Assembly: GCA_946811695.1 (NCBI GenBank)
Contig: OX328126.1
Coordinates: 1,468,009-1,532,008, forward strand
Direction: 5' to 3'
DNA from: Gonocerus acuteangulatus
Lineage: Eukaryota > Arthropoda > Insecta > Hemiptera > Coreidae
DNA length: 64,000 nt
Position numbers and translations under genes: made by a program. Under the pieces are notes generated by a model, which was not told where the DNA came from, did no database searches, and saw only the letters and a list, made by a program, of their open reading frames with translations. Shown here piece after piece: positions 16,481 through 64,000 of the stretch (positions are counted from its first letter, which is position 1; each line of letters opens with the position of its first letter).

Positions 16481-16497
16481 TATATATATATATATAT
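16481..16497. repeat. (TA)n microsatellite
   Basis: Seventeen bases of alternating TA lie directly before the CAGTCTTG that appears to start the second retroelement. It may be the insertion target, since some R1-clade LINEs favour microsatellites; this is inference. Confidence 0.8.
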
Positions 16498-16806: not shown

Positions 16807-17448
16807 ATGGCGGAAGTAAAAAATCTGATTGATAGTGCTCTTTCAAAGCTAATTGTTATCTCAAACTATCAGTTTCTAAAAGGCGAACTAAAGGAGAAGG
16901 CTCGAGAAACAATCGAGGAACTGAATAAAGCAGTCAGCATGCTAACACTCATAATTAGCAAAGAAACGATGCAGGGAAAACCACCATCTCAAACTCATCA
17001 CCAAGGAAATCAACCGCCTGACACTAGCTATTCTCGGATAGTAAGCAAGAAAATCACGGTCTCTATATCAAGACCCACATACAAATACATCGTAAAAACC
17101 GTTCCACAATCGAGTGTGAATGTTGAAAATGAGTTGAAAAGAGTCATAAAACCCAAGAACATGAAGGTTACAATTGATAAACTCGTACCCCTCAGAAATG
17201 GCGCTATAACGGTTCAAATCGACAACAAGGACGATGGCGAGAAAATAGAAGCAGAAATAAAGAAGGAAAGCCGGGAAATAACCATCGATAGAATCAGGAA
17301 GAAAAAACCACGAATCATTATTAAGGACATCGAAGAGGATTTCAATATTACCAACATTGTGGAAGAATTGATAGAACAGAATGAGGAAATCCCACTCGAC
17401 CGGGAGAATATCAAACCAATACTGGACAAGCACCAATACTGGAAGTGA
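16807..17448 (+). pseudogene. R1-clade-like gag, N-terminal part, frameshifted
   Basis: A 213-aa open frame begins at ATG 16807 (aagATGG context). Residues 1-57 look helical (F-L-K-G-E-L-K-E-K-A-R-E-T) as in R1-clade gag N-termini. Residues 58-75 are a Gln/Pro linker. Residues 76-200 carry the gag core, including V-P-L-R-N-G-A-I-T-V and K-K-P-R-I-I-I-K-D-I. Frame 1 ends in H-Q-Y-W-K-stop at 17446-17448. The expected continuation (I-L-E-V-N-G-M-N-R-K-T-L-L) is present from 17436 in frame 3, so a frameshift near 17436 separates the core from the zinc knuckle. Everything downstream of the first knuckle has been replaced by the 163-bp array, so no ORF2 is visible. Strongly supported as retrotransposon gag; the clade is likely but unproven. 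Confidence 0.75.
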
Positions 17449-17606
17449 ATGGAATGAACAGGAAAACACTTTTAAATAATAGGATAAAGCTGGGCTATAA
17501 AATAGTGGCTGTAGACAATTATTATTCAATTAGATGTTGCTTCAAATGTAACAAGTTTCATCATAAGCAGTCAGAGTGTCGGAGTGAAACAGTGTGCCCA
17601 TTGTGT
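17436..17606 (+). pseudogene. Gag zinc-knuckle segment, founder unit of the array
   Basis: In frame 3 the gag resumes and encodes a canonical CX2CX4HX4C knuckle, CFKCNKFHHKQSEC, at 17538-17579. The first half of a second knuckle (CPLC) follows before the sequence jumps back to the start of the unit. This first copy keeps private variants not usual in the array: acttttaaa, ggctgtagac and agatgttgc (Cys in place of Arg before the knuckle). That fits the position of an ancestral edge copy. It joins the gag core upstream without any other sequence between. Confidence 0.7.
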
Positions 17607-22301: not shown

Positions 22302-25300
22302 GTGAAACAGTGTGCCCATTGTGTAGTGAATGGAATGAACAGGAAAACACTCTTAAATAATAGGATAAAGCTGGGCTATAAAATAGTGGCTATAGACAAT
22401 TATTATTCAATTAGACGTTGCTTCAAATGTAACAAGTTTCATCATAAGCAATCAGAGTGTCGGAGTGAAACAGTGTGCCCATTGTGTAGTGAATGGAATG
22501 AACAGGAAAACACTCTAAATAATAGGATAAAGCTGGGCTATAAAATAGTGGCTATAGACAATTATTATTCAATTAGACGTTGCTTCAAATGTAACAAGTT
22601 TCATCATAAGCAATCAGAGTGTCGGAGTGAAACAGTGTGTCCATTGTGTAGTGAATGGAATGAACAGGAAAACACTCTTAAATAATAGGATAAAGCTGGG
22701 CTATAAAATAGTGGCTATAGACAATTATTATTCAATTAGACGTTGCTTCATATGTAACAAGTTTCATCATAAGCAATCAGAGTGTCGGAGTGAAACAGTG
22801 TGTCCATTGTGTAGTGAATGGAATGAAACGGAAAACACTCTTAAATAATAGGATAAAGCTGGGCTATAAAATAGTGGCTATAGACAATTATTATTCAATT
22901 AGACGTTGCTTCAAATGTAACAAGTTTCATCATAAGCAATCAGAGTGTCGGAGTGAAACAGTGTGTCCATTGTGTAGTGAATGGAATGAACAGGAAAACA
23001 CTCTTAAATAATAGGATAAAGCTGGGCTATAAAATAGTGACTATAGACAATTATTATTCAATTAGACGTTGCTTCAAATGTAACAAGTTTCATCATAAGC
23101 AATCAGAGTGTCGGAGTGAAACAGTGTGCCCATTGTGTAGTGAATGGAATGAACAGGAAAACACTCTTAAATAATAGGATAAAGCTGGGCTATAAAATAG
23201 TGATTGTAGACAATTATTATTCAATTAGACGTTGCTTCAAATGTAACAAGTTTCATCATAAGCAGAGTGTCGGAGTGAAACAGTGTGCCCATTGTGTAGT
23301 GAATGGAATGAACAGGAAAACACTCTTAAATAATAGGATAAAGCTGGGCTATAAAATAGTGGCTATAGACAATTATTATTCAATTAGACGTTGCTTCAAA
23401 TGTAACAAGTTTCATCATAAGCAATCAGAGTGTCGGAGTGAAACAGTGTGTCCATTGTGTAGTGAATGGAATGAACAGGAAAACACTCTTAAATAATAGG
23501 ATAAAGCTGGGCTATAAAATAGTGACTGTAGACAATTATTATTCAATTAGACGTTGCTTCAAATGTAACAAGTTTCATCATAAGCAATCAGAGTGTCGGA
23601 GTGAAAGAGTGTGTCCATTGTGTAGTGAATGGAATGAACAGGAAAACACTCTTAAATAATAGGATAAAGCTGGGCTATAAAATAGTGGCTATAGACAATT
23701 ATTATTCAATTAGACGTTGCTTCAAATGTAACAAGTTTCATCATAAGCAATCAGAGTGTCGGAGTGAAACAGTGTGTCCATTGTGTAGTGAATGGAATGA
23801 ACAGGAAAACACTCTTAAATAATAGGATAAAGCTGGGCTATAAAATAGTGGCTATAGACAATTATTATTCAATTAGACGTTGCTTCAAATGTAACAAGTT
23901 TCATCATAAGCAATCAGAGTGTCGGAGTGAAACAGTGTGTCCATTGTGTAGTGAATGGAATGAACAGGAAAACACTCTTAAATAATAGGATAAAGCTGGG
24001 CTATAAAATAGTGGCTATAGACAATTATTATTCAATTAGACGTTGCTTCAAATGTAACAAGTTTCATCATAAGCAATCAGAGTGTCGGAGTGAAACAGTG
24101 TGCCCATTGTGTAGTGAATGGAATGAACAGGAAAACACTCTTAAATAATAGGATAAAGCTGGGCTATAAAATAGTGGCTATAGACAATTATTATTCAATT
24201 AGACGTTGCTTCAAATGTAACAAGTTTCATCATAAGCAATCAGAGTGTCGGAGTGAAACAGTGTGTCCATTGTGTAGTGAATGGAATGAACAGGAAAACA
24301 CTCAACAATAATAGGATAAAGCTGGGCTATAAAATAGTGGCTATAGACAATTATTATTCAATTAGACGTTGCTTCAAATGTAACAAGTTTCATCATAAGC
24401 AATCAGAGTTTCGGAGTGAAACAGTGTGGCTATTGTGTAGTGAATGGAATGAACAGGAAAACACTCTTAAATAATAGGATAAAGCTGGGCTATAAAATAG
24501 TGGCTATAGACAATTATTATTCAATTAGACGTTGCTTCAAATGTAACAAGTTTCATCATAAGCAATCAGAGTGTCGGAGTGAAACAGTGTGTCCATTGTG
24601 TAGTGAATGGAATGAACAGGAAAACACTCTTAAATAATAGGATAAAGCTGGGCTATAAAATAGTGGCTATAGACAATTATTATTCAATTAGACGTTGCTT
24701 CAAATGTAACAAGTTTCATCATAAGCAATCAGAGTGTCGGAGTGAAACAGTGTGTCCATTGTGTAGTGAATGGAATGAACAGGAAAACACTTTTAAATAA
24801 TAGGATAAAGCTGGGCTATAAAATAGTGGCTATAGACAATTATTATTCAATTAGACGTTGCTTCAAATGTAACAAGTTTCATCATAAGCAATCAGAGTGT
24901 CGGAGTGAAACAGTGTGTCCATTGTGTAGTGAATGGAATGAACAGGAAAACACTCTTAAATAATAGGATAAAGCTGGGCTATAAAATAGTGGCTATAGAC
25001 AATTATTATTCAATTAGACGTTGCTTCAAATGTAACAAGTTTCATCATAAGCAGTCAGAGTGTCGGAGTGAAACAGTGTGTCCATTGTGTAGTGAATGGA
25101 ATGAACAGGAAAACACTCTTAAATAATAGGATAAAGCTGGGCTATAAAATAGTGGCTATAGACAATTATTATTCAATTAGACGTTGCTTCAAATGTAACA
25201 AGTTTCATCATAAGCAATCAGAGTGTCGGAGTGAAACAGTGTGTCCATTGTGTAGTGAATGGAATGAACAGGAAAACACTCTTAAATAATAGAATAAAGC

Positions 25301-26045
25301 TGGGCTATAAAATAGTGACTATAGACAATTATTATTCAATTAGACGTTGCTTCAAATGTAACAAGTTTCATCATAAGCAATCAGAGTGTCGGAGTGAAAC
25401 AGTGTGTCCATTGTGTAGTGAATGGAATGAACAGGAAAACACTCTTAAATAATAGGATAAAGCTGGGCTATAAAATAGTGACTGTAGACAATTATTATTC
25501 AATTAGACGTTGCTTCAAATGTAACAAGTTTCATCATAAGCAATCAGAGTGTCGGAGTGAAACAGTGTGTCCATTGTGTAGTGAATGGAATGAACAGGAA
25601 AACACTCTTAAATAATAGGATAAAGCTGGGCTATAAAATAGTGGCTATAGACAATTATTATTCAATTAGACGTTGCTTCAAATGTAACAAGTTTCATCAT
25701 AAGCAATCAGAGTGTCGGAGTGAAACAGTGTGTCCATTGTGTAGTGAATGGAATGAACAGGAAAACACTCTTAAATAATAGGATAAAGCTGGGCTATAAA
25801 ATAGTGGCTATAGACAATTATTATTCAATTAGACGTTGCTTCAAATGTAACAAGTTTCATCATAAGCAATCAAAGTGTCGGAGTGAAACAGTGTGTCCAT
25901 TGTGTAGTGAATGGAATGAACAGGAAAACACTCTTAAATAATAGGATAAAGCTGGGCTATAAAATAGTGGCTATAGACAATTATTATTCAATTAGACGTT
26001 GCTTCAAATGTAACAAGTTTCATCATAAGCAATCAGAGTGTCGGA
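22302..26045. repeat. 23-unit (3744-bp) higher-order repeat, copy 1
   Basis: Within this block a 162-bp unit, a tcatatgtaac unit with gaaacgg, a 159-bp unit, a gaaagagtg unit, an actcaacaa unit and a gagtttcgg/tggctattg unit occur in fixed order. The same series returns 3744 bp later (23x163 minus 5 for the short units). A shorter relative of the first part is seen at 19862-20892. Confidence 0.85.
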
Positions 26046-29000: not shown

Positions 29001-29627
29001 TGAATGGAATGAACAGGAAAACACTCTTAAATAATAGGATAAAGCTGGGCTATAAAATAGTGACTGTAGACAATTATTATTCAATTAGACGTTGCTTCAA
29101 ATGTAACAAGTTTCATCATAAGCAATCAGAGTGTCGGAGTGAAACAGTGTGTCCATTGTGTAGTGAATGGAATGAACAGGAAAACACTCTTAAATAATAG
29201 GATAAAGCTGGGCTATAAAATAGTGGCTATAGACAATTATTATTCAATTAGACGTTGCTTCAAATGTAACAAGTTTCATCATAAGCAATCAGAGTGTCGG
29301 AGTGAAACAGTGTGTCCATTGTGTAGTGAATGGAATGAACAGGAAAACACTCTTAAATAATAGGATAAAGCTGGGCTATAAAATAGTGGCTATAGACAAT
29401 TATTATTCAATTAGACGTTGCTTCAAATGTAACAAGTTTCATCATAAGCAATCAAAGTGTCGGAGTGAAACAGTGTGTCCATTGTGTAGTGAATGGAATG
29501 AACAGGAAAACACTCTTAAATAATAGGATAAAGCTGGGCTATAAAATAGTGGCTATAGACAATTATTATTCAATTAGACGTTGCTTCAAATGTAACAAGT
29601 TTCATCATAAGCAATCAGAGTGTCGGA
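26046..29627. repeat. 23-unit higher-order repeat, copy 2 (one unit shorter)
   Basis: It repeats the marker series of 22302-26045. After the unit with an extra A (gaaaacag, about 28653) the offset falls from 3744 to 3582 bp, so one unit has been lost, as expected from unequal exchange. The match ends near 29627. Confidence 0.82.
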
Positions 29628-32600: not shown

Positions 32601-33599
32601 AGGAAAAAACTCTTAAATAATAGGATAAAGCTGGGCTATAAAATAGTGACTGTAGACAATTATTATTCAATTAGACGTTGTTTCAAATGTAACAAGTTTC
32701 ATCATAAGCAATCAGAGTGTCGGAGTGAAACAGTGTGCCCATTGTGTAGTGAATGGAATGAACAGGAAAACACTCTTAAATAATAGGATAAAGCTGGGCT
32801 ATAAAATAGTGGCTATAGACAATTATTATTCAATTAGACGTTTCTTCAAATGTAACAAGTTTCATCATAAGCAATGAGAGTGTCGGAGTGAAACAGTGTG
32901 TCCATTGTGTAGTGAATGGAATGAACAGGAAAACACTCTTAAATAATAGCATAAAGCTGGGCTATAAAATAGTGGCTATAGACAATTATTATTCAATTAG
33001 ACGTTGCTTTAAATGTAACAAGTTTCATCATAAGCAATCAGAGTGTCGGAGTGAAACAGTGTGTCCATTGTGTAGTGAATGGAATGAACAGGAAAACACT
33101 CTTAAATAATAGGATAAAGCTGGGCTATAAAATAGTGGCTATAGACAATTATTATTCAATTAGACGTTGCTTTAAATGTAACAAGTTTCATCATAAGCAA
33201 TCAGAGTGTCGGAGTGAAACAGTGTGTCCATTGTGTAGTGAATGGAATGAAGAGGAAAACACTCTTAAATAATAGGATAAAGCTGGGCTATAAAATAGTG
33301 GCTATAGACAATTATTATTCAATTAGACGTTGCTTCAAATGTAACAAGTTTCATCATAAGCAATCAGAGTGTCGGAGTGAAACAGAGTGTCCATTGTGTA
33401 GTGAATGGAATGAAGAGGAAAACACTCTTAAATAATAGGATAAAGCTGGGCTATAAAATAGTGACTATAGACAATTATTATTCAATTAGACGTTGCTTCA
33501 AATGTAACAAGTTTCATCATAAGCAATCAGAGTGTCGGAGTGAAACAGAGTGTCCATTGTGTAGTGAATGGAATGAAGAGGAAAACACTCTTAAATAAT

Positions 33600-36500
33600 A
33601 GGATAAAGCTGGGCTATAAAATAGTGACTATAGACAATTATTATTCAATTAGACTTTGCTTCAAATGTAACAAGTTTCATCATAAGCAATCAGAGTGTCG
33701 GAGTGAAACAGTGTGTCCATTGTGTAGTGAATGGAATGAACAGGAAAACACTCTTAAATAATAGGATAATGCTGGGCTATAAAATAGTGGCTATAGACAA
33801 TTATTATTCAATTAGACGTTGCTTCAAATGTAACAAGTTTCATCATAAGCAGTCAGAGTGTCGGAGTGAAACAGTGTGCCCATTGTGTAGTGAATGGAAT
33901 GAACAGGAAAACACTCTTAAATAATAGGATAAAGCTGGGCTATAAAATAGTGGCTATAGACAATTATTATTCAATTAGACGTTGCTTCAAATGTAACAAG
34001 TTTCATCATAAGCAATCAGAGTGTCGGAGTGAAACAGTGTGCCCATTGTGTAGTGAATGGAATGAAGAGGAAAACACTCTTAAATAATAGGATAAAGCTG
34101 GGCTATAAAATAGTGACTATAGACAATTATTATTCAATTAGACGTTGCTTCAAATGTAACAAGTTTCATCATAAGCAATCAGAGTGTCGGAGTGAAACAG
34201 TGTGTCCATTGTGTAGTGAATGGAATGAAGAGGAAAACACTCTTAAATAATAGGATAAAGCTGGGCTATAAAATAGTGGCTATAGACAATTATTATTCAA
34301 TTAGAAGTTGCTTCAAATGTAACAAGTTTCATCATAAGCAATCAGAGTGTCGGAGTGAAACAGTGTGTCCATTGTGTAGTGAATGGAATGAAGAGGAAAA
34401 CACTCTTAAATAATAGGATAAAGCTGGGCTATAAAATAGTGGCTATAGACAATTATTATTCAATTAGACGTTGCTTCAAATGTAACAAGTTTCATCATAA
34501 GCAATCAGAGTGTCGGAGTGAAACAGTGTGTCCATTGTGTAGTGAATGGAATGAAGAGGAAAACACTCTTAAATAATAGGATAAAGCTGGGCTATAAAAT
34601 AGTGGCTATAGACAATTATTATTCAATTAGACGTTGCTTCAAATGTAACAAGTTTCATCATAAGCAATCAGAGTGTCGGAGTGAAACAGTGTGTCCATTG
34701 CGTAGTGAATGGAATGAACAGGAAAACACTCTTAAATAATAGGATAAAGCTGGGCTATAAAATAGTGACTATAGACAATTATTATTCAATTAGACGTTGC
34801 TTCAAATGTAACAAGTTTCATCATAAGCAATCAGAGTGTCGGAGTGAAACAGTGTGTCCATTGTGTAGTGAATGGAATGAACAGGAAAACACTCTTAAAT
34901 AATAGGATAAAGCTGGGCTATAAAATAGTGGCTATAGACAATTATTATTCAATTAGACGTTGCTTCAAATGTAACAAGTTTCATCATAAGCAATCAGAGT
35001 GTCGGAGTGAAACAGTGTGTCCATTGTGTAGTGAATGGAATGAAGAGGAAAACACTCTTAAATAATAGGATAAAGCTGGGCTATAAAATAGTAGCTATAG
35101 ACAATTATTATTCAATTAGACGTTGCTTCAAATGTAACAAGTTTCATCATAAGCAATCAGAGTGTCGGAGTGAAACAGTGTGCCCATTGTGTAGTGAATG
35201 GAATGAACAGGAAAACACTCTTAAATAATAGGATAAAGCCGGGCTATAAAAAAAAAGCTATAGACAATTATTATTCAATTAGACGTTGCTTCAAATGTAA
35301 CAAGTTTCATCATAAGCAATCAGAGTGTCGGAGTGAAACAGTGTGTCCATTGTGTAGTGTATGGAATGAACAGGAAAACACTCTTAAATAATAGGATAAC
35401 GCTGGGCTATAAAATAGTGGCTATAGACAATTATTATTCAATTAGACGTTGCTTCAAATGTAACAAGTTTCATCATAAGCAATCAGAGTGTCGGAGTGAA
35501 ACAGTGTACCCATTGTGTAGTGAATGGAATGAACAGGAAAACACTCTTAAATAATAGGATAAAGCTGGGCTATAAAATAGTAGCTATAGACAATTATTAT
35601 TCAATTAGACGTTGCTTCAAATGTAACAAGTTTCATCATAAGCAATCAGAGTGTCGGAGTGAAACAGTGTACCCATTGTGTAGTGAATGGAATGAACAGG
35701 AAAACACTCTTAAATAATAGGATAAAGCTGGGCTATAAAATAGTAGCTATAGACAATTATTATTCAATTAGACGTTGCTTCAAATGTAACAAGTTTCATC
35801 ATAAGCAATCAGAGTGTCGGAGTGAAACAGTGTGTCCATTGTGTAGTGAATGGAATGAAGAGGAAAACACTCTTAAATAATAGGATAAAGCTGGGCTATA
35901 AAATAGTAGCTATAGACAATTATTATTCAATTAGACGTTGCTTCAAATGTAACAAGTTTCATCATAAGCAATCAGAGTGTCGGAGTGAAACAGTGTGCCC
36001 ATTGTGTAGTGAATGGAATGAACAGGAAAACACTCTTAAATAATAGGATAAAGCCGGGCTATAAAAAAAAAGCTATAGACAATTATTATTCAATTAGACG
36101 TTGCTTCAAATGTAACAAGTTTCATCATAAGCAATCAGAGTGTCGGAGTGAAACAGTGTGTCCATTGCGTAGTGAATGGAATGAACAGGAAAACACTCTT
36201 AAATAATAGGATAAAGCTGGGCTATAAAATAGTGACTATAGACAATTATTATTCAATTAGACGTTGCTTCAAATGTAACAAGTTTCATCATAAGCAATCA
36301 GAGTGTCGGAGTGAAACAGTGTGTCCATTGTGTAGTGAATGGAATGAACAGGAAAACACTCTTAAATAATAGGATAAAGCTGGGCTATAAAATAGTGGCT
36401 ATAGACAATTATTATTCAATTAGACGTTGCTTCAAATGTAACAAGTTTCATCATAAGCAATCAGAGTGTCGGAGTGAAACAGTGTGTCCATTGTGTAGTG

Positions 36501-39500
36501 AATGGAATGAAGAGGAAAACACTCTTAAATAATAGGATAAAGCTGGGCTATAAAATAGTAGCTATAGACAATTATTATTCAATTAGACGTTGCTTCAAAT
36601 GTAACAAGTTTCATCATAAGCAATCAGAGTGTCGGAGTGAAACAGTGTGCCCATTGTGTAGTGAATGGAATGAACAGGAAAACACTCTTAAATAATAGGA
36701 TAAAGCCGGGCTATAAAAAAAAAGCTATAGACAATTATTATTCAATTAGACGTTGCTTCAAATGTAACAAGTTTCATCATAAGCAATCAGAGTGTCGGAG
36801 TGAAACAGTGTGTCCATTGTGTAGTGTATGGAATGAACAGGAAAACACTCTTAAATAATAGGATAACGCTGGGCTATAAAATAGTGGCTATAGACAATTA
36901 TTATTCAATTAGACGTTGCTTCAAATGTAACAAGTTTCATCATAAGCAATCAGAGTGTCGGAGTGAAACAGTGTACCCATTGTGTAGTGAATGGAATGAA
37001 CAGGAAAACACTCTTAAATAATAGGATAAAGCTGGGCTATAAAATAGTAGCTATAGACAATTATTATTCAATTAGACGTTGCTTCAAATGTAACAAGTTT
37101 CATCATAAGCAATCAGAGTGTCGGAGTGAAACAGTGTGTCCATTGTGTAGTGAATGGAATGAACAGGAAAACACTCTTAAATAATAGGATAAAGCTGGGC
37201 TATAAAATAGTGGCTATAGACAATTATTATTCAATTAGACGTTGCTTCAAATGTAACAAGTTTCATCATAAGCAATCAGAGTGTCGGAGTGAAACAGTGT
37301 GTCCATTGTGTAGTGAATGGAATGAAGAGGAAAACACTTTTAAATAATAGGATAAAGCTGGGCTATAAAATAGTGGCTATTGACAATTATTATTCAATTA
37401 GACGTTGCTTCAAATGTAACAAGTTTCATCAATAGCAATCAGAGTGTCGGAGTGAAACAGTGTGTCCATTGTGTAGTGAATGGAATGAAGAGGAAAACAC
37501 TCTTAAATAATAGGATAAAGCTGGGCTATAAAATAGTGGCTATAGACAATTATTATTCAATTAGACGTTGCTTCAAATGTAACAAGTTTCATCATAAGCA
37601 ATCAGAGTGTCGGAGTGAAACAGTGTGTCCATTGCGTAGTGAATGGAATGAACAGGAAAACACTCTTAAATAATAGGATAAAGCTGGGCTATAAAATAGT
37701 GACTATAGACAATTATTATTCAATTAGACGTTGCTTCAAATGTAACAAGTTTCATCATAAGCAATCAGAGTGTCGGAGTGAAACAGTGTACCCATTGTGT
37801 AGTGAATGGAATGAACAGGAAAACACTCTTAAATAATAGGATAAAGCTGGGCTATAAAATAGTAGCTATAGACAATTATTATTCAATTAGACGTTGCTTC
37901 AAATGTAACAAGTTTCATCATAAGCAATCAGAGTGTCGGAGTGAAACAGTGTGTCCATTGTGTAGTGAATGGAATGAACAGGAAAACACTCTTAAATAAT
38001 AGGATAAAGCTGGGCTATAAAATAGTAGCTATAGACAATTATTATTCAATTAGACGTTGCTTCAAATGTAACAAGTTTCATCATAAGCAATCAGAGTGTC
38101 GGAGTGAAACAGTGTACCCATTGTGTAGTGAATGGAATGAACAGGAAAACACTCTTAAATAATAGGATAAAGCTGGGCTATAAAATAGTAGCTATAGACA
38201 ATTATTATTCAATTAGACGTTGCTTCAAATGTAACAAGTTTCATCATAAGCAATCAGAGTGTCGGAGTGAAACAGTGTGCCCATTGTGTAGTGAATGAAA
38301 TGAACAGGAAAACACTCTTAAATAATAGGATAAAGCTGGGCTATAAAATAGTGGCTATAGACAATTATTATTCAATTAGACGTTGCTTCAAATGTAACAA
38401 GTTTCATCATAAGCAATCAGAGTGTCGGAGTGAAACAGTGTGTCCATTGTGTAGTGAATGGAATGAAGAGGAAAACACTCTTAAATAATAGGATAAAGCT
38501 GGGCTATAAAATAGTGGCTATAGACAATTATTATTCAATTAGACGTTGCTTCAAATGTAACAAGTTTCATCATAAGCAATCAGAGTGTCGGAGTGAAACA
38601 GTGTGTCCATTGCGTAGTGAATGGAATGAAGAGGAAAACACTCTTAAATAATAGGATAAAGCTGGGCTATAAAATAGTGGCTATAGACAATTATTATTCA
38701 ATTAGACGTTGCTTCAAATGTAACAAGTTTCATCATAAGCAATCAGAGTGTCGGAGTGAAACAGTGTGCCCATTGTGTAGTGAATGGAATGAACAGGAAA
38801 ACACTCTTAAATAATAGGATAAAGCTGGGCTATAAAATAGTGGCTATAGACAATTATTATTCAATTAGACGTTGCTTCAAATGTAACAAGTTTCATCATA
38901 AGCAATCACAGTGTCGGAGTGAAACAGTGTGCCCATTGTGTAGTGAATGGAATGAACAGGAAAACACTCTTAAATAATAGGATAAAGCTGGGCTATAAAA
39001 TAGTGGCTATAGACAATTATTATTCAATTAGACGTTGCTTCAAATGTAACAAGTTTCATCATAAGCAATCAGAGTGTCGGAGTGAAACAGTGTGTCCATT
39101 GTGTAGTGAATGGAATGAACAGGAAAACACTCTTAAATAATAGGATAAAGCTGGGCTATAAAATAGTGGCTATAGACAATTATTATTCAATTAGACGTTG
39201 CTTCAAATGTAACAAGTTTCATCATAAGCAATCACAGTGTCGGAGTGAAACAGTGTGCCCATTGTGTAGTGAATGGAATCAAGAGGAAAACACTCTTAAA
39301 TAATAGGATAAAGCTGGGCTATAAAATAGTGGCTATAGACAATTATTATTCAATTAGACGTTGCTTCAAATGTAACAAGTTTCATCATAAGCAATCAGAG
39401 TGTCGCAGTGAAACAGTGTGTCCATTGTGTAGTGAATGGAATGAACAGGAAAACACTCCTAAATAATAGGATAAAGCTGGGCTATAAAATAGTGGCTATA

Positions 39501-41200: not shown

Positions 41201-43156
41201 GTGAAACAGTGTGTCCATTGTGTAGTGAATGGAATGAACAGGAAAACACTCTTAAATAATAGGATAAAGCTGGGCTATAAAATAGTGGCTATAGACAATT
41301 ATTATTCAATTAGACGTTTCTTCAAATGTAACAAGTTTCATCATAAGCAATCACAGTGTCGGAGTGAAACAGTGTGCCCATTGTGTAGTGAATGGAATCA
41401 AGAGGAAAACACTCTTAAATAATAGGATAAAGCTGGGCTATAAAATAGTGGCTATAGACAATTATTATTCAATTAGACGTTGCTTCAAATGTAACAAGTT
41501 TCATCATAAGCAATCAGAGTGTCGCAGTGAAACAGTGTGTCCATTGTGTAGTGAATGGAATGAACAGGAAAACACTCCTAAATAATAGGATAAAGCTGGG
41601 CTATAAAATAGTGGCTATAGACAATTATTATTCAATTAGACGTTGTTTCAAATGTAACAAGTTTCATCATAAGCAATCAGAGTGTCGGAGTGAAACAGTG
41701 TGTCCATTGTGTAGTGAATGGAATGAACAGGAAAACACTCTTAAATAATAGGATAAAGCTGGGCTATAAAATAGTGGCTATAGACAATTATTATTCAATT
41801 AGACGTTGCTTCAAATGTAACAAGTTTCATCATAAGCAATCACAGTGTCGGAGTGAAACAGTGTGCCCATTGTGTAGTGAATGGAATGAAGAGGAAAACA
41901 CTCTTAAATAATAGGATAAAGCTGGGCTATAAAATAGTGGCTATAGACAATTATTATTCAATTAGACGTTGCTTCAAATGTAACAAGTTTCATCATAAGC
42001 AATCAGAGTGTCGGAGTGAAACAGTGTGTCCATTGTGTAGTGAATGGAATGAACAGGAAAACACTCTTAAATAATAGGATAAAGCTGGGCTATAAAATAG
42101 TGGCTATAGACAATTATTATTCAATTAGACGTTGCTTCAAATGTAACAAGTTTCATCATAAGCAATCAGAGTGTCGGAGTGAAACAGTGTGTCCATTGTG
42201 TAGTGAATGGAATGAAGAGGAAAACACTCTTAAATAATAGGATAAAGCTGGGCTATAAAATAGTGGCTATAGACAATTATTATTCAATTAGACGTTGCTT
42301 CAAATGTAACAAGTTTCATCATAAGCAATCAGAGTGTCGGAGTGAAACAGTGTGTCCATTGTGTAGTGAATGGAATCAAGAGGAAAACACTCTTAAATAA
42401 TAGGATAAAGCTGGGCTATAAAATAGTGGCTATAGACAATTATTATTCAATTAGACGTTGCTTCAAATGTAACAAGTTTCATCATAAGCAATCAGAGTGT
42501 CGGAGTGAAACAGTGTGTCCATTGTGTAGTGAATGGAATGAAGAGGAAAACACTCTTAAATAATAGGATAAAGCTGGGCTATAAAATAGTGGCTATAGAC
42601 AATTATTATTCAATTAGACGTTGCTTCAAATGTAACAAGTTTCATCATAAGCAATCAGAGTGTCGGAGTGAAACAGTGTGTCCATTGTGTAGTGAATGGA
42701 ATGAACAGGAAAACACTCTTAAATAATAGGATAAAGCTGGGCTATAAAATAGTGGCTATAGACAATTATTATTCAATTAGACGTTGCTTCAAATGTAACA
42801 AGTTTCATCATAAGCAATCAGAGTGTCGGAGTGAAACAGTGTGTCCATTGTGTAGTGAATGGAATGAAGAGGAAAACACTCTTAAATAATAGGATAAAGC
42901 TGGGCTATAAAATAGTGGCTATAGACAATTATTATTCAATTAGACGTTGCTTCAAATGTAACAAGTTTCATCATAAGCAATCAGAGTGTCGGAGTGAAAC
43001 AGTGTGTCCATTGTGTAGTGAATGGAATGAAGAGGAAAACACTCTTAAATAATAGGATAAAGCTGGGCTATAAAATAGTGGCTATAGACAATTATTATTC
43101 AATTAGACGTTGCCTCAAATGTAACAAGTTTCATCATAAGCAATCAGAGTGTCGGA

Positions 43157-43311
43157 GTGAAACAGTGTGTCCATTGTGTAGTGAATGGAATGAACAGGAA
43201 AACACTCTTAAATAATAGGATAAAGCTGGGCTATAAAATAGTGGCTATAGACAATTATTATTCAATTAGACGTTGCTTCAAATGTAACAAGTTTCATCAT
43301 AAGCAGTCGGA
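43157..43311. repeat. 155-bp deletion unit of the 163-bp satellite
   Basis: Eight bases are missing between ataagca and gtcggagtg, probably by slippage between the short direct repeats around cagagtgtcggag. It accounts for the 8-bp shortfall in the 113-unit offset between the two block A copies. Confidence 0.85.
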
Positions 43312-46300: not shown

Positions 46301-48939
46301 ATAATAGGATAAAGCTGGGCTATAAAATAGTGGCTATAGACAATTATTATTCAATTAGACGTTGCTTCAAATGTAACAAGTTTCATCATAAGCAATCAGA
46401 GTGTCGGAGTGAAACAGTGTGTCCATTGTGTAGTGAATGGAATCAAGAGGAAAACACTCTTAAATAATAGGATAAAGCTGGGCTATAAAATAGTGGCTAT
46501 AGACAATTATTATTCAATTAGACGTTGCTTCAAATGTAACAAGTTTCATCATAAGCAATCAGAGTGTCGGAGTGAAACAGTGTGTCCATTGTGTAGTGAA
46601 TGGAATGAAGAGGAAAGCACTCTTAAATAATAGGATTAAGCTGGGCTATAAAATAGTGGCTATAGACAATTATTATTCAATTAGACGTTGCTTCAAATGT
46701 AACAAGTTTCATCATAAGCAATCAGAGTGTCGGAGTGAAACAGTGTGTCCATTGTGTAGTGAATGGAATCAAGAGGAAAACACTCTTAAATAATAGGATA
46801 AAGCTGGGCTATAAAATAGTGGCTATAGACAATTATTATTCAATTAGACGTTGCTTCAAATGTAACAAGTTTCATCATAAGCAATCAGAGTGTCGGAGTG
46901 AAACAGTGTGTCCATTGTGTAGTGAATGGAATGAAGAGGAAAACACTCTTAAATAATAGGATAAAGCTGGGCTATAAAATAGTGGCTATAGACAATTATT
47001 ATTCAATTAGACGTTGCTTCAAATGTAACAAGTTTCATCATAAGCAATCACAGTGTCGGAGTGAAACAGTGTGCCCATTGTGTAGTGAATGGAATGAACA
47101 GGAAAACACTCTTAAATAATAGGATAAAGCTGGGCTATAAAATAGTGGCTATAGACAATTATTATTCAATTAGACGTTGCTTCAAATGTAACAAGTTTCA
47201 TCATAAGCAATCACAGTGTCGGAGTGAAACAGTGTGCCCATTGTGTAGTGAATGGAATGAAGAGGAAAACACTCTTAAATAATAGGATAAAGCTGGGCTA
47301 TAAAATAGTGGCTATAGACAATTATTATTCAATTAGACGTTGCTTCAAATGTAACAAGTTTCATCATAAGCAATCAGAGTGTCGGAGTGAAACAGTGTGT
47401 CCATTGTGTAGTGAATGGAATGAACAGGAAAACACTCTTAAATAATAGGATAAAGCTGGGCTATAAAATAGTGGCTATAGACAATTATTATTCAATTAGA
47501 CGTTGCTTCAAATGTAACAAGTTTCATCATAAGCAATCAGAGTGTCGGAGTGAAACAGTGTGTCCATTGTGTAGTGAATGGAATGAACAGGAAAACACTC
47601 TTAAATAATAGGATAAAGCTGGGCTATAAAATAGTGGCTATAGACAATTATTATTCAATTAGACGTTGCTTCAAATGTAACAAGTTTCATCATAAGCAAT
47701 CAGAGTGTCGGAGTGAAACAGTGTGTCCATTGTGTAGTGAATGGAATCAAGAGGAAAACACTCTTAAATAATAGGATAAAGCTGGGCTATAAAATAGTGG
47801 CTATAGACAATTATTATTCAATTAGACGTTGCTTCAAATGTAACAAGTTTCATCATAAGCAATCAGAGTGTCGGAGTGAAACAGTGTGTCCATTGTGTAG
47901 TGAATGGAATGAAGAGGAAAACACTCTTAAATAATAGGATAAAGCTGGGCTATAAAATAGTGGCTATAGACAATTATTATTCAATTAGACGTTGCTTCAA
48001 ATGTAACAAGTTTCATCATAAGCAATCAGAGTGTCGGAGTGAAACAGTGTGTCCATTGTGTAGTGAATGGAATGAAGAGGAAAACACTCTTAAATAATAG
48101 GATAAAGCTGGGCTATAAAATAGTGGCTATAGACAATTATTATTCAATTAGACGTTGCTTCAAATGTAACAAGTTTCATCATAAGCAATCAGAGTGTCGG
48201 AGTGAAACAGTGTGTCCATTGTGTAGTGAATGGAATGAAGAGGAAAACACTCTTAAATAATAGGATAAAGCTGGGCTATAAAATAGTGGCTATAGACAAT
48301 TATTATTCAATTAGACGTTGCTTCAAATGTAACAAGTTTCATCATAAGCAATCAGAGTGTCGGAGTGAAACAGTGTGTCCATTGTGTAGTGAATGGAATG
48401 AAGAGGAAAACACTCTTAAATAATAGGATAAAGCTGGGCTATAAAATAGTGGCTATAGACAATTATTATTCAATTAGACGTTGCTTCAAATGTAACAAGT
48501 TTCATCATAAGCAATCAGAGTGTCGGAGTGAAACAGTGTGTCCATTGTGTAGTGAATGGAATGAAGAGGAAAACACTCTTAAATAATAGGATAAAGCTGG
48601 GCTATAAAATAGTGGCTATAGACAATTATTATTCAATTAGACGTTGCTTCAAATGTAACAAGTTTCATCATAAGCAATCAGAGTGTCGGAGTGAAACAGT
48701 GTGTCCATTGTGTAGTGAATGGAATGAAGAGGAAAACACTCTTAAATAATAGGATAAAGCTGGGCTATAAAATAGTGGCTATAGACAATTATTATTCAAT
48801 TAGACGTTGCTTCAAATGTAACAAGTTTCATCATAAGCAATCAGAGTGTCGGAGTGAAACAGTGTGTCCATTGTGTAGTGAATGGAATGAAGAGGAAAAC
48901 ACTCTTAAATAATAGGATAAAGCTGGGCTATAAAATAGT

Positions 48940-51900
48940 GGCTATAGACAATTATTATTCAATTAGACGTTGCTTCAAATGTAACAAGTTTCATCATAAG
49001 CAATCAGAGTGTCGGAGTGAAACAGTGTGTCCATTGTGTAGTGAATGGAATGAAGAGGAAAACACTCTTAAATAATAGGATAAAGCTGGGCTATAAAATA
49101 GTGGCTATAGACAATTATTATTCAATTAGACGTTGCTTCAAATGTAACAAGTTTCATCATAAGCAATCAGAGTGTCGGAGTGAAACAGTGTGTCCATTGT
49201 GTAGTGAATGGAATGAACAGGAAAACACTCTTAAATAATAGGATAAAGCTGGGCTATAAAATAGTGGCTATAGACAATTATTATTCAATTAGACGTTGCT
49301 TCAAATGTAACAAGTTTCATCATAAGCAATCAGAGTGTCGGAGTGAAACAGTGTGTCCATTGTGTAGTGAATGGAATCAAGAGGAAAACACTCTTAAATA
49401 ATAGGATAAAGCTGGGCTATAAAATAGTGGCTATAGACAATTATTATTCAATTAGACGTTGCTTCAAATGTAACAAGTTTCATCATAAGCAATCAGAGTG
49501 TCGGAGTGAAACAGTGTGTCCATTGTGTAGTGAATGGAATGAAGAGAAAAACACTCTTAAATAATAGGATAAAGCTGGGCTATAAAATAGTGGCTATAGA
49601 CAATTATTATTCAATTAGACGTTGCTTCAAATGTAACAAGTTTCATCATAAGCAATCAGAGTGTCGGAGTGAAACAGTGTGTCCATTGTGTAGTGAATGG
49701 AATCAAGAGGAAAACACTCTTAAATAATAGGATAAAGCTGGGCTATAAAATAGTGGCTATAGACAATTATTATTCAATTAGACGTTGCTTCAAATGTAAC
49801 AAGTTTCATCATAAGCAATCAGAGTGTCGGAGTGAAACAGTGTGTCCATTGTGTAGTGAATGGAATGAACAGGAAAACACTCTTAAATAATAGGATAAAG
49901 CTGGGCTATAAAATAGTGGCTATAGACAATTATTATTCAATTAGACGTTGCTTCAAATGTAACAAGTTTCATCATAAGCAATCAGAGTGTCGGAGTGAAA
50001 CAGTGTGTCCATTGTGTAGTGAATGGAATGAAGAGGAAAACACTCTTAAATAATAGGATAAAGCTGGGCTATAAAATAGTGACTATAGACAATTATTATT
50101 CAATTAGACGTTGCTTCAAATGTAACAAGTTTCATCATAAGCAATCAGAGTGTCGGAGTGAAACAGTGTGTCCATTGTGTAGTGAATGGAATGAAGAGGA
50201 AAACACTCTTAAATAATAGGATAAAGCTGGGCTATAAAATAGTGGCTATAGACAATTATTATTCAATTAGACGTTGCTTCAAATGTAACAAGTTTCATCA
50301 TAAGCAATCAGAGTGTCGGAGTGAAACAGTGTGTCCATTGTGTAGTGAATGGAATGAACAGGAAAACACTCTTAAATAATAGGATAAAGCTGGGCTATAA
50401 AATAGTGGCTATAGACAATTATTATTCAATTAGACGTTGTTTCAAATGTAACAAGTTTCATCATAAGCAATCAGAGTGTCGGAGTGAAACAGTGTGTCCA
50501 TTGTGTAGTGAATGGAATGAACAGGAAAACACTCTTAAATAATAGGATAAAGCTGGGCTATAAAATAGTGGCTATAGACAATTATTATTCAATTAGACGT
50601 TGCTTCAAATGTAACAAGTTTCATCATAAGCAATCAGAGTGTCGGAGTGAAACAGAGTGTCCATTGTGTAGTGAATGGAATGAACAGGAAAACACTCTTA
50701 AATAATAGGATAAAGCTGGGCTATAAAATAGTGGCTATAGACAATTATTATTCAATTAGACGTTGCTTCAAATGTAACAAGTTTCATCATAAGCAATCAG
50801 AGTGTCGGAGTGAAACAGTGTGTCCATTGTGTAGTGATTGGAATGAACAGGAAAACACTCTTAAATAATAGGATAAAGCTGGGCTATAAAATAGTGGCTA
50901 TAGACAATTATTATTCAATTAGACGTTGCTTCAAATGTAACAAGTTTCATCATAAGCAATCAGAGTGTCGGAGTGAAACAGTGTGTCCATTGTGTAGTGA
51001 ATGGAATGAAGAGGAAAACACTCTTAAATAATAGGATAAAGCTGGGCTATAAAATAGTGGCTATAGACAATTATTATTCAATTAGACGTTGCTTCAAATG
51101 TAACAAGTTTCATCATAAGCAATCAGAGTGTCGGAGTGAAACAGTGTGTCCATTGTGTAGTGAATGGAATGAAGAGGAAAACACTCTTAAATAATAGGAT
51201 AAAGCTGGGCTATAAAATAGTGGCTATAGACAATTATTATTCAATTAGACGTTGCTTCAAATGTAACAAGTTTCATCATAAGCAATCAGAGTGTCGGAGT
51301 GAAACAGTGTGTCCATTGTGTAGTGAATGGAATGAACAGGAAAACACTCTTAAATAATAGGATAAAGCTGGGCTATAAAATAGTGGCTATAGACAATTAT
51401 TATTCAATTAGACGTTGCTTCAAATGTAACAAGTTTCATCATAAGCAATCAGAGTGTCGGAGTGAAACAGTGTGTCCATTGTGTAGTGATTGGAATGAAC
51501 AGGAAAACACTCTTAAATAATAGGATAAAGCTGGGCTATAAAATAGTGGCTATAGACAATTATTATTCAATTAGACGTTGCTTCAAATGTAACAAGTTTC
51601 ATCATAAGCAATCAGAGTGTCGGAGTGAAACAGTGTGTCCATTGTGTAGTGAATGGAATGAAGAGAAAAACACTCTTAAATAATAGGATAAAGCTGGGCT
51701 ATAAAATAGTGGCTATAGACAATTATTATTCAATTAGACGTTGCTTCAAATGTAACAAGTTTCATCATAAGCAATCAGAGTGTCGGAGTGAAACAGTGTG
51801 TCCATTGTGTAGTGAATGGAATGAAGAGGAAAACACTCTTAAATAATAGGATAAAGCTGGGCTATAAAATAGTGGCTATAGACAATTATTATTCAATTAG

Positions 51901-54900
51901 ACGTTGCTTCAAATGTAACAAGTTTCATCATAAGCAATCAGAGTGTCGGAGTGAAACAGTGTGCCCATTGTGTAGTGAATGGAATGAAGAGGAAAACACT
52001 CTTAAATAATAGGATAAAGCTGGGCTATAAAATAGTGACTATAGACAATTATTATTCAATTAGACTTTGCTTCAAATGTAACAAGTTTCATCATAAGCAA
52101 TCAGAGTGTCGGAGTGAAACAGTGTGTCCATTGTGTAGTGAATGGAATGAACAGGAAAACACTCTTAAATAATAGGATAATGCTGGGCTATAAAATAGTG
52201 GCTATAGACAATTATTATTCAATTAGACGTTGCTTCAAATGTAACAAGTTTCATCATAAGCAGTCAGAGTGTCGGAGTGAAACAGTGTGCCCATTGTGTA
52301 GTGAATGGAATGAACAGGAAAACACTCTTAAATAATAGGATAAAGCTGGGCTATAAAATAGTGGCTATAGACAATTATTATTCAATTAGACGTTGCTTCA
52401 AATGTAACAAGTTTCATCATAAGCAATCAGAGTGTCGGAGTGAAACAGTGTGCCCATTGTGTAGTGAATGGAATGAAGAGGAAAACACTCTTAAATAATA
52501 GGATAAAGCTGGGCTATAAAATAGTGACTATAGACAATTATTATTCAATTAGACGTTGCTTCAAATGTAACAAGTTTCATCATAAGCAATCAGAGTGTCG
52601 GAGTGAAACAGTGTGTCCATTGTGTAGTGAATGGAATGAAGAGGAAAACACTCTTAAATAATAGGATAAAGCTGGGCTATAAAATAGTGGCTATAGACAA
52701 TTATTATTCAATTAGAAGTTGCTTCAAATGTAACAAGTTTCATCATAAGCAATCAGAGTGTCGGAGTGAAACAGTGTGTCCATTGTGTAGTGAATGGAAT
52801 GAAGAGGAAAACACTCTTAAATAATAGGATAAAGCTGGGCTATAAAATAGTGGCTATAGACAATTATTATTCAATTAGACGTTGCTTCAAATGTAACAAG
52901 TTTCATCATAAGCAATCAGAGTGTCGGAGTGAAACAGTGTGTCCATTGTGTAGTGAATGGAATGAAGAGGAAAACACTCTTAAATAATAGGATAAAGCTG
53001 GGCTATAAAATAGTGGCTATAGACAATTATTATTCAATTAGACGTTGCTTCAAATGTAACAAGTTTCATCATAAGCAATCAGAGTGTCGGAGTGAAACAG
53101 TGTGTCCATTGCGTAGTGAATGGAATGAACAGGAAAACACTCTTAAATAATAGGATAAAGCTGGGCTATAAAATAGTGACTATAGACAATTATTATTCAA
53201 TTAGACGTTGCTTCAAATGTAACAAGTTTCATCATAAGCAATCAGAGTGTCGGAGTGAAACAGTGTGTCCATTGTGTAGTGAATGGAATGAACAGGAAAA
53301 CACTCTTAAATAATAGGATAAAGCTGGGCTATAAAATAGTGGCTATAGACAATTATTATTCAATTAGACGTTGCTTCAAATGTAACAAGTTTCATCATAA
53401 GCAATCAGAGTGTCGGAGTGAAACAGTGTGTCCATTGTGTAGTGAATGGAATGAAGAGGAAAACACTCTTAAATAATAGGATAAAGCTGGGCTATAAAAT
53501 AGTAGCTATAGACAATTATTATTCAATTAGACGTTGCTTCAAATGTAACAAGTTTCATCATAAGCAATCAGAGTGTCGGAGTGAAACAGTGTGCCCATTG
53601 TGTAGTGAATGGAATGAACAGGAAAACACTCTTAAATAATAGGATAAAGCCGGGCTATAAAAAAAAAGCTATAGACAATTATTATTCAATTAGACGTTGC
53701 TTCAAATGTAACAAGTTTCATCATAAGCAATCAGAGTGTCGGAGTGAAACAGTGTGTCCATTGTGTAGTGTATGGAATGAACAGGAAAACACTCTTAAAT
53801 AATAGGATAACGCTGGGCTATAAAATAGTGGCTATAGACAATTATTATTCAATTAGACGTTGCTTCAAATGTAACAAGTTTCATCATAAGCAATCAGAGT
53901 GTCGGAGTGAAACAGTGTACCCATTGTGTAGTGAATGGAATGAACAGGAAAACACTCTTAAATAATAGGATAAAGCTGGGCTATAAAATAGTAGCTATAG
54001 ACAATTATTATTCAATTAGACGTTGCTTCAAATGTAACAAGTTTCATCATAAGCAATCAGAGTGTCGGAGTGAAACAGTGTACCCATTGTGTAGTGAATG
54101 GAATGAACAGGAAAACACTCTTAAATAATAGGATAAAGCTGGGCTATAAAATAGTAGCTATAGACAATTATTATTCAATTAGACGTTGCTTCAAATGTAA
54201 CAAGTTTCATCATAAGCAATCAGAGTGTCGGAGTGAAACAGTGTGTCCATTGTGTAGTGAATGGAATGAAGAGGAAAACACTCTTAAATAATAGGATAAA
54301 GCTGGGCTATAAAATAGTAGCTATAGACAATTATTATTCAATTAGACGTTGCTTCAAATGTAACAAGTTTCATCATAAGCAATCAGAGTGTCGGAGTGAA
54401 ACAGTGTGCCCATTGTGTAGTGAATGGAATGAACAGGAAAACACTCTTAAATAATAGGATAAAGCCGGGCTATAAAAAAAAAGCTATAGACAATTATTAT
54501 TCAATTAGACGTTGCTTCAAATGTAACAAGTTTCATCATAAGCAATCAGAGTGTCGGAGTGAAACAGTGTGTCCATTGCGTAGTGAATGGAATGAACAGG
54601 AAAACACTCTTAAATAATAGGATAAAGCTGGGCTATAAAATAGTGACTATAGACAATTATTATTCAATTAGACGTTGCTTCAAATGTAACAAGTTTCATC
54701 ATAAGCAATCAGAGTGTCGGAGTGAAACAGTGTGTCCATTGTGTAGTGAATGGAATGAACAGGAAAACACTCTTAAATAATAGGATAAAGCTGGGCTATA
54801 AAATAGTGGCTATAGACAATTATTATTCAATTAGACGTTGCTTCAAATGTAACAAGTTTCATCATAAGCAATCAGAGTGTCGGAGTGAAACAGTGTGTCC

Positions 54901-59697: not shown

Positions 59698-62600
59698 GGC
59701 TATAGACAATTATTATTCAATTAGACGTTGCTTCAAATGTAACAAGTTTCATCATAAGCAATCAGAGTGTCGGAGTGAAACAGTGTGTCCATTGTGTAGT
59801 GAATGGAATGAAGAGGAAAACACTCTTAAATAATAGGATAAAGCTGGGCTATAAAATAGTGGCTATAGACAATTATTATTCAATTAGACGTTGCTTCAAA
59901 TGTAACAAGTTTCATCATAAGCAATCAGAGTGTCGGAGTGAAACAGTGTGTCCATTGTGTAGTGAATGGAATGAACAGGAAAACACTCTTAAATAATAGG
60001 ATAAAGCTGGGCTATAAAATAGTGGCTATAGACAATTATTATTCAATTAGACGTTGCTTCAAATGTAACAAGTTTCATCATAAGCAATCAGAGTGTCGGA
60101 GTGAAACAGTGTGTCCATTGTGTAGTGAATGGAATCAAGAGGAAAACACTCTTAAATAATAGGATAAAGCTGGGCTATAAAATAGTGGCTATAGACAATT
60201 ATTATTCAATTAGACGTTGCTTCAAATGTAACAAGTTTCATCATAAGCAATCAGAGTGTCGGAGTGAAACAGTGTGTCCATTGTGTAGTGAATGGAATGA
60301 AGAGAAAAACACTCTTAAATAATAGGATAAAGCTGGGCTATAAAATAGTGGCTATAGACAATTATTATTCAATTAGACGTTGCTTCAAATGTAACAAGTT
60401 TCATCATAAGCAATCAGAGTGTCGGAGTGAAACAGTGTGTCCATTGTGTAGTGAATGGAATCAAGAGGAAAACACTCTTAAATAATAGGATAAAGCTGGG
60501 CTATAAAATAGTGGCTATAGACAATTATTATTCAATTAGACGTTGCTTCAAATGTAACAAGTTTCATCATAAGCAATCAGAGTGTCGGAGTGAAACAGTG
60601 TGTCCATTGTGTAGTGAATGGAATGAACAGGAAAACACTCTTAAATAATAGGATAAAGCTGGGCTATAAAATAGTGGCTATAGACAATTATTATTCAATT
60701 AGACGTTGCTTCAAATGTAACAAGTTTCATCATAAGCAATCAGAGTGTCGGAGTGAAACAGTGTGTCCATTGTGTAGTGAATGGAATGAAGAGGAAAACA
60801 CTCTTAAATAATAGGATAAAGCTGGGCTATAAAATAGTGACTATAGACAATTATTATTCAATTAGACGTTGCTTCAAATGTAACAAGTTTCATCATAAGC
60901 AATCAGAGTGTCGGAGTGAAACAGTGTGTCCATTGTGTAGTGAATGGAATGAAGAGGAAAACACTCTTAAATAATAGGATAAAGCTGGGCTATAAAATAG
61001 TGGCTATAGACAATTATTATTCAATTAGACGTTGCTTCAAATGTAACAAGTTTCATCATAAGCAATCAGAGTGTCGGAGTGAAACAGTGTGTCCATTGTG
61101 TAGTGAATGGAATGAACAGGAAAACACTCTTAAATAATAGGATAAAGCTGGGCTATAAAATAGTGGCTATAGACAATTATTATTCAATTAGACGTTGTTT
61201 CAAATGTAACAAGTTTCATCATAAGCAATCAGAGTGTCGGAGTGAAACAGTGTGTCCATTGTGTAGTGAATGGAATGAACAGGAAAACACTCTTAAATAA
61301 TAGGATAAAGCTGGGCTATAAAATAGTGGCTATAGACAATTATTATTCAATTAGACGTTGCTTCAAATGTAACAAGTTTCATCATAAGCAATCAGAGTGT
61401 CGGAGTGAAACAGAGTGTCCATTGTGTAGTGAATGGAATGAACAGGAAAACACTCTTAAATAATAGGATAAAGCTGGGCTATAAAATAGTGGCTATAGAC
61501 AATTATTATTCAATTAGACGTTGCTTCAAATGTAACAAGTTTCATCATAAGCAATCAGAGTGTCGGAGTGAAACAGTGTGTCCATTGTGTAGTGATTGGA
61601 ATGAACAGGAAAACACTCTTAAATAATAGGATAAAGCTGGGCTATAAAATAGTGGCTATAGACAATTATTATTCAATTAGACGTTGCTTCAAATGTAACA
61701 AGTTTCATCATAAGCAATCAGAGTGTCGGAGTGAAACAGTGTGTCCATTGTGTAGTGAATGGAATGAAGAGGAAAACACTCTTAAATAATAGGATAAAGC
61801 TGGGCTATAAAATAGTGGCTATAGACAATTATTATTCAATTAGACGTTGCTTCAAATGTAACAAGTTTCATCATAAGCAATCAGAGTGTCGGAGTGAAAC
61901 AGTGTGTCCATTGTGTAGTGAATGGAATGAAGAGGAAAACACTCTTAAATAATAGGATAAAGCTGGGCTATAAAATAGTGGCTATAGACAATTATTATTC
62001 AATTAGACGTTGCTTCAAATGTAACAAGTTTCATCATAAGCAATCAGAGTGTCGGAGTGAAACAGTGTGTCCATTGTGTAGTGAATGGAATGAACAGGAA
62101 AACACTCTTAAATAATAGGATAAAGCTGGGCTATAAAATAGTGGCTATAGACAATTATTATTCAATTAGACGTTGCTTCAAATGTAACAAGTTTCATCAT
62201 AAGCAATCAGAGTGTCGGAGTGAAACAGTGTGTCCATTGTGTAGTGATTGGAATGAACAGGAAAACACTCTTAAATAATAGGATAAAGCTGGGCTATAAA
62301 ATAGTGGCTATAGACAATTATTATTCAATTAGACGTTGCTTCAAATGTAACAAGTTTCATCATAAGCAATCAGAGTGTCGGAGTGAAACAGTGTGTCCAT
62401 TGTGTAGTGAATGGAATGAAGAGAAAAACACTCTTAAATAATAGGATAAAGCTGGGCTATAAAATAGTGGCTATAGACAATTATTATTCAATTAGACGTT
62501 GCTTCAAATGTAACAAGTTTCATCATAAGCAATCAGAGTGTCGGAGTGAAACAGTGTGTCCATTGTGTAGTGAATGGAATGAAGAGGAAAACACTCTTAA

Positions 62601-64000
62601 ATAATAGGATAAAGCTGGGCTATAAAATAGTGGCTATAGACAATTATTATTCAATTAGACGTTGCTTCAAATGTAACAAGTTTCATCATAAGCAATCAGA
62701 GTGTCGGAGTGAAACAGTGTGCCCATTGTGTAGTGAATGGAATGAAGAGGAAAACACTCTTAAATAATAGGATAAAGCTGGGCTATAAAATAGTGACTAT
62801 AGACAATTATTATTCAATTAGACTTTGCTTCAAATGTAACAAGTTTCATCATAAGCAATCAGAGTGTCGGAGTGAAACAGTGTGTCCATTGTGTAGTGAA
62901 TGGAATGAACAGGAAAACACTCTTAAATAATAGGATAATGCTGGGCTATAAAATAGTGGCTATAGACAATTATTATTCAATTAGACGTTGCTTCAAATGT
63001 AACAAGTTTCATCATAAGCAGTCAGAGTGTCGGAGTGAAACAGTGTGCCCATTGTGTAGTGAATGGAATGAACAGGAAAACACTCTTAAATAATAGGATA
63101 AAGCTGGGCTATAAAATAGTGGCTATAGACAATTATTATTCAATTAGACGTTGCTTCAAATGTAACAAGTTTCATCATAAGCAATCAGAGTGTCGGAGTG
63201 AAACAGTGTGCCCATTGTGTAGTGAATGGAATGAAGAGGAAAACACTCTTAAATAATAGGATAAAGCTGGGCTATAAAATAGTGACTATAGACAATTATT
63301 ATTCAATTAGACGTTGCTTCAAATGTAACAAGTTTCATCATAAGCAATCAGAGTGTCGGAGTGAAACAGTGTGTCCATTGTGTAGTGAATGGAATGAAGA
63401 GGAAAACACTCTTAAATAATAGGATAAAGCTGGGCTATAAAATAGTGGCTATAGACAATTATTATTCAATTAGAAGTTGCTTCAAATGTAACAAGTTTCA
63501 TCATAAGCAATCAGAGTGTCGGAGTGAAACAGTGTGTCCATTGTGTAGTGAATGGAATGAAGAGGAAAACACTCTTAAATAATAGGATAAAGCTGGGCTA
63601 TAAAATAGTGGCTATAGACAATTATTATTCAATTAGACGTTGCTTCAAATGTAACAAGTTTCATCATAAGCAATCAGAGTGTCGGAGTGAAACAGTGTGT
63701 CCATTGTGTAGTGAATGGAATGAAGAGGAAAACACTCTTAAATAATAGGATAAAGCTGGGCTATAAAATAGTGGCTATAGACAATTATTATTCAATTAGA
63801 CGTTGCTTCAAATGTAACAAGTTTCATCATAAGCAATCAGAGTGTCGGAGTGAAACAGTGTGTCCATTGCGTAGTGAATGGAATGAACAGGAAAACACTC
63901 TTAAATAATAGGATAAAGCTGGGCTATAAAATAGTGACTATAGACAATTATTATTCAATTAGACGTTGCTTCAAATGTAACAAGTTTCATCATAAGCAAT
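59698..64000. repeat. 66-unit higher-order repeat, copy 2 (cut by the window end)
   Basis: It repeats copy 1 for the 4.3 kb visible, including the gagtgtcc, tgattgg, agactttgc, ggataatgc and agaagttgc markers at the expected 10,758-bp spacing. A third start of block A begins near 62770. It continues past the window. Confidence 0.82.

Follow-up and report, generated by a model that had tools for sequence, protein, structure and literature searches.

The window analysed here, a stretch of 64,000 nucleotides from the forward strand of contig OX328126.1 (positions 1,468,009 to 1,532,008; assembly GCA_946811695.1) of the coreid bug Gonocerus acuteangulatus, contains a satellite DNA of 163-bp units that begins where an open reading frame (ORF) ends. 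Each unit can be read as a short peptide with a zinc knuckle, and this peptide resembles the knuckle region of ORF1 of a long interspersed element (LINE, a non-LTR retrotransposon) that lies in the same window. Our analysis suggests that the satellite very probably derives from the knuckle segment of a LINE gag, and that it may still be joined to the gag piece from which it came. The features on which the argument is built are the following, with positions counted from the first base of the window:

16498..16806, forward strand: probable 5' leader of a LINE piece carrying the upstream ORF, by direct reading; starts with CAGTCTTG
16807..17448, forward strand: ORF of 213 codons, probably the N-terminal part of a LINE gag (ORF1); stops 5 bases inside the array
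17415..17443, forward strand: junction, with the 12-bp direct repeat ACCAATACTGGA at 17-bp spacing directly before unit 1
17444..64000, forward strand: array of the 163-bp satellite, from Tandem Repeats Finder (TRF) and segmentation; 285.8 copies, cut by the window end
17445..17606, forward strand: 54-codon frame of unit 1, with the zinc knuckle CX2CX4HX4C and then CPLC; its consensus peptide resembles the LINE ORF1 knuckle region

The array is a head-to-tail succession with 98% matches according to TRF, and its copy number is a lower bound, as the array runs past position 64000 and its far end lies outside the window. Segmentation gave 286 units, the cut last one included, namely 276 units of 163 bp, four of 159 bp, three of 162 bp, one each of 164 and 155 bp, and the last with 128 bp. 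The units of 163 bp fall into 79 distinct sequences and deviate from their consensus by 1.63 mismatches on average, and 84 sequence types occur among the 285 labelled units. Units differ by 1-2% from one another, and unit 1 has five differences from the consensus. It is such a long head-to-tail array of similar units that would be expected of a transposon-derived satellite. A constant higher-order period was not found, the mean difference between units being 2.39-2.76 at lags of 1-20 units versus 2.66 overall.

The 54-codon open frame begins at the second base of the unit and reads VNGMN...CPLC. The peptide CFKCNKFHHKQSEC is found exactly 246 times in the array. Of the 276 full-length units, with the ten units of other length left out, 273 have a stop-free frame, 267 keep the CX2CX4HX4C spacing and 253 keep the final CX2C. 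The earlier note, which had been made from the sequence alone, claimed about 286 copies of a 163-bp unit with this knuckle, and TRF, segmentation and the peptide counts all agree with that. A 53-residue peptide taken from the unit had no Pfam match that passed the cut-offs. When the unit peptide was compared with the ORF1 knuckle region of the LINE at 3122-9348, 12 of 35 positions were identical with a BLASTP E of 2e-5, a value that holds for one single comparison, and the alignment takes in the knuckle together with the 19 residues before it. None of 2000 full shuffles attained the alignment score; with every cysteine and histidine kept in place, 8 of 2000 did, so the match exceeds the shared cysteine pattern, though modestly. 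The homology of the unit to a transposon part, here the LINE ORF1 at 3413-4525, is one of distant protein similarity only. A parent of the unit at the DNA level was not found; the knuckle DNA had no match in viral contigs and, as a degenerate pattern, none in genome contigs, and the bases 17444-17900 had none in plasmids. The context of the CX2CX4HX4C knuckle is common to the unit and the ORF1 of the neighbouring LINE, and as the unit peptide resembles this region, an origin from a LINE gag is likely, and the unit very probably represents its zinc-knuckle segment.

At its left side, the array has a sharp edge at 17444, where the preceding base differs from the last base of the unit; 11 of 60 ungapped positions match between the left flank and the unit end, and this flank occurs once in the window. 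The earlier note had described gene and satellite as physically continuous, and the upstream ORF indeed ends where the array begins. If the phase is changed by one base at the junction, the knuckle frame would extend this ORF; either a 17-base insertion or a change of one base within the A run at the array edge could explain this shift. Of 3000 random sequences with a length of 1157 bases, 8 contained a 12-bp repeat at a spacing of 6-30 bp, as seen in the junction. As we read it, the joint between units, TTGTGT/AGTGAATGG, would mark the first duplication's breakpoint, for which the window does not contain the other parental sequence.

The upstream ORF sits in a stop-free stretch of 224 codons that starts at 16771, a length reached by none of 2000 random sequences built with the neighbour frequencies of 16287-17443 (the longest was 199). 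The leader, at about 16498, opens with the same eight bases that also begin the LINE at 3122. Some ORF1 proteins of LINEs contain RRM-like folds of strand-helix type. In single-sequence AlphaFold2 predictions of the upstream ORF, the best of five models had a mean pLDDT of 54.5 and the other four 36-41; the better part of this low-confidence best model is a strand-helix-strand-strand-helix-strand succession of beta-alpha-beta type at residues 91-166. A fold search with the model gave no match at E<=0.001, and many of the 50 rows listed were aspartate kinase chains, which says nothing about gag. We infer the gag identity of the ORF from its position, order and orientation, and from this predicted shape.

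How the array has grown can be read from its unit types. Runs of 26, 23, 21 and 10 units are found again with their order preserved, whereas the longest run in 20 shuffles was 4. Three pairs of blocks were compared unit by unit, as a MAFFT alignment slips by whole units and gives false substitutions:

33563..41223, forward strand: block X1, 47 units; its copy X2, 48 units, at 51974-59797
48877..51973, forward strand: block Y1, 19 units; its copy Y2 at 59635-62731
22325..25905, forward strand: block W1, older, 22 units; its copy from 26069

In the X pair, 46 of 47 paired units are identical, with two substitutions in 7661 bp and one extra unit that is found only in X2; the unit at 59635 fits both as the last of X2 and as the first of Y2. 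Block Y and the seven units that follow it are identical in 26 of 26 units at a distance of 66 units, with 0 differences in 4238 bp, and the longest exact repeat in the array has 4413 bp. The W pair has diverged further; 14 of its 22 unit pairs are identical, and it shows 10 substitutions over 3418 bp as well as one length difference. Control pairings at distances of 66 and 30 units gave 1 of 47 and 2 of 22 identical units, respectively. The order of the blocks is X, Z, Y, X, Y, X, the last being cut, and the array was therefore recently lengthened when a Y+X block of 66 units (about 10.8 kb) was copied. Such large-block copying points to unequal exchange or replication-based copying.

The open frame of the units does not make the array a coding sequence. 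With a length of 163 bp, or three times 54 plus one, the frame shifts with each unit and stops follow, and the longest stop-free stretch of the array in six frames is 150 codons. The variants are spread over codon positions 1, 2 and 3 as 23, 23 and 29, and 20 of 75 are synonymous, with an expected share of 0.21 (binomial P 0.25), so there is no sign of a selection that keeps the peptide. The array would hence be non-coding satellite DNA that serves no coding purpose. A centromeric role is not supported either: no CENP-B box was found in the consensus unit, and the spectrum of AT dinucleotides has a minor component at 10.87 bp with 3.3% of the power, with larger components at 163, 23.29 and 11.64 bp. 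The near-nucleosomal unit length says little on its own.

As the unit is continuous with an upstream ORF that ends at the array start, an expansion inside a LINE is the simplest account, and we consider it likely that a LINE gag was split by the expansion of an internal 163-bp segment. In this course of events, a LINE would have inserted beside an 86-bp satellite, and the 163-bp zinc-knuckle segment inside its gag (ORF1) would have been duplicated in tandem. This duplication would then have expanded to about 285 or more copies through unequal exchange or replication-linked events, in which single units as well as blocks of tens of units were copied, and the product would be the present non-coding array. 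The array, the ORF joined to it, the similarity of the knuckle and the block duplications are directly seen. That the ORF and the knuckle were once one gag gene, that the first duplication took place in the present copy, and that the remainder of the LINE lies at the far end is what the account would entail. Several results weigh against it. No relative of the upstream ORF was found at E<=0.001 among 620 candidates with the ORF plus the knuckle as query, or at E<=10 among 179 candidates with residues 90-267 only; the sole Pfam match had 13.2 bits, under the cut-off of 27, and the comparison with the ORF1 of the neighbouring LINE was not significant (BLASTP E 1.2, with 161 of 500 shuffles as good). 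A search for related loci gave 49 pattern matches in genome contigs and 1 in viral contigs, none of which was confirmed. The frames of the ORF and of the knuckle differ by one base at the junction and are not continuous, and with cysteines and histidines fixed, the knuckle similarity is good but not overwhelming. Furthermore, neither a parent LINE nor the other end of the array was seen. An assignment of the gag to the R1 clade, as had been proposed in the earlier note, is not borne out, as no reverse transcriptase (RT) is attached to the upstream ORF in the window and the two relative searches, which included no direct comparison with R1 gag, were negative; the word exon, used there for the knuckle segment, likewise finds no basis, no evidence of an intron having been seen and none having been looked for.

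The same note had also taken the locus for the birthplace of the satellite, a claim that is unsupported and would require both an intact parent element and the other end of the array. In its full form, a gag segment of one LINE copy would have grown in place to over 46 kb, flanked by the 5' half of the gene on one side and by a predicted 3' half on the other; we regard this as tentative and lean slightly away from it. If it were true, the founding breakpoints and the order of the block duplications would be directly readable. It is unlikely, by comparison, that the array formed elsewhere from another LINE copy, or that the LINE family carries a variable internal gag repeat and the element arrived with units already repeated, which then expanded. 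With five differences in unit 1 and units 1-2% apart, a founding unit is indistinguishable from a later edge unit, and the expansion of short internal transposon arrays is described in a review (PMC12628747); since 163 is not divisible by three, however, repeats of the knuckle segment would break the gag, which makes a working family with such repeats improbable. A still less probable explanation is that the upstream ORF is unrelated, and that a general satellite of the genome ends here and was joined to it by a chance rearrangement. The mismatch of the frames and the missing homology of the ORF to any gag would fit a chance joining, but the ORF stops where the array starts, the unit reads as the next expected part of a LINE ORF1, and two independent gag-like pieces would hardly meet by chance in the same orientation and order. 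An assembly artefact, with the array length or the block duplications resulting from mis-assembled repetitive reads, could be suspected from the exact 4413-bp repeat and the 26 units without a difference. We consider it very improbable, as X1 and X2 differ by their two substitutions and the extra unit, the W blocks by ten substitutions and a length change, and the 84 distinct unit types recur in order. Finally, the stop-free frames (273 of 276 units) and intact knuckle spacings (267 of 276) might suggest that a knuckle peptide or a repeat protein is encoded in the array and kept by selection, yet the low divergence of the units already accounts for both, and the spread of the variants over codon positions, the expected synonymous share and the lack of any stop-free stretch above 150 codons leave next to no room for this.

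The expansion of a gag segment within a LINE is thus the reading that we prefer, and the locus is a neighbourhood of satellites and transposons. The 86-bp satellite occupies 1-3121 and 9349-16286 with 96% matches (TRF), and its two parts are separated by the LINE at 3122-9348, which has an A-rich tail and is flanked by the target-site duplication TCTCGGATTTC at 3111-3121 and 9349-9359. In the 86-bp satellite, a 16-unit block is repeated exactly at a distance of 17 units, and a 26-base piece of its unit had no match in viral contigs. In the LINE, ORF2 at 5185-8859 (1224 codons) has Pfam matches to endonuclease, RT and RNase H. ORF1 has CCHC knuckles, as recognized by eye, and a proline-rich tail, and Pfam assigned 0 families to it; near 3440, its start appears to be in another frame than its main part. 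The best matches to ORF2, among those listed, have 59-60% identity, and the eukaryotes named among the 120 relatives listed are two mosquitoes, a scorpion and a spider. Three of the ORF2 matches (P0004, P0043 and P0093) are filed as bacterial, under Pantoea sp. Taur, a Solemya gill symbiont and a gammaproteobacterial symbiont, and are probably host sequences that entered symbiont assemblies. A stretch of about 210 bp (16287-16497) separates the 86-bp array from the LINE piece with the upstream ORF and contains a hammerhead-ribozyme-like motif (CTGATGA, stem II, GAAA) at 16407-16445 on the minus strand. This piece may come from a Penelope-like element, which it resembles. Minimal type I hammerheads are reported in Penelope-like elements (PMC7229834). 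An Rfam search of 1-18200 gave no match at E<=1, the hammerhead-like motif included, and no tRNAs were found.

The origins of satellites have mostly been inferred from old arrays that have lost their source. In our case, the probable source is still attached to the array, whose left edge is sharp and whose blocks were duplicated recently, and both the first breakpoint and the mode of growth are therefore open to study. Satellites that are derived from LINEs are already known, and the available part of one review (PMC9659126) describes HinfI/SCR1 of chicken, from the 3'UTR and part of ORF2 of CR1, PROsat of Phodopus roborovskii, from L1 ORF2, and the common cetacean satellite, from the 3' part of L1. 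Like the 163-bp unit, these are tandem units from a part of a LINE, in some cases with coding sequence, but they come from ORF2 or the 3' end, whereas the 163-bp unit resembles the ORF1/gag knuckle and has a probable gag piece joined to it upstream. According to the same source, 18HT of the Drosophila melanogaster Y centromere, from HeT-A and TART, is likewise an insect satellite from non-LTR elements, but the source named there is a 3' non-coding region, and HeT-A and TART have a telomeric function. A gag origin is given there for E3900 of rye, in which part of the gag reading frame of the element Crwydryn became a satellite; Crwydryn is, however, a plant LTR retrotransposon with another type of gag. 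Satellites that grow from short arrays inside transposons such as Helitrons, as described in PMC12628747, resemble our case in that an array grows within a transposon copy, but those transposons regularly contain the short array, whereas the source of the 163-bp array apparently was coding sequence. Among the satellite sources given in the latter review are the untranslated regions of LINEs and, for LTR elements, gag or pol; a LINE fragment in trematode heterochromatin is, according to its authors, not tandem (PMC8392823). LINE ORF1 is not named as a satellite source in the available parts of PMC9659126 or PMC12628747, and among the matches listed in our literature searches, no title concerned a satellite from a LINE gag. 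What is apparently new in the satellite of Gonocerus acuteangulatus, when compared with these systems, is the ORF1 source and the probable source that is still attached, and this would add LINE ORF1 to the parts of LINEs that are able to become satellites.

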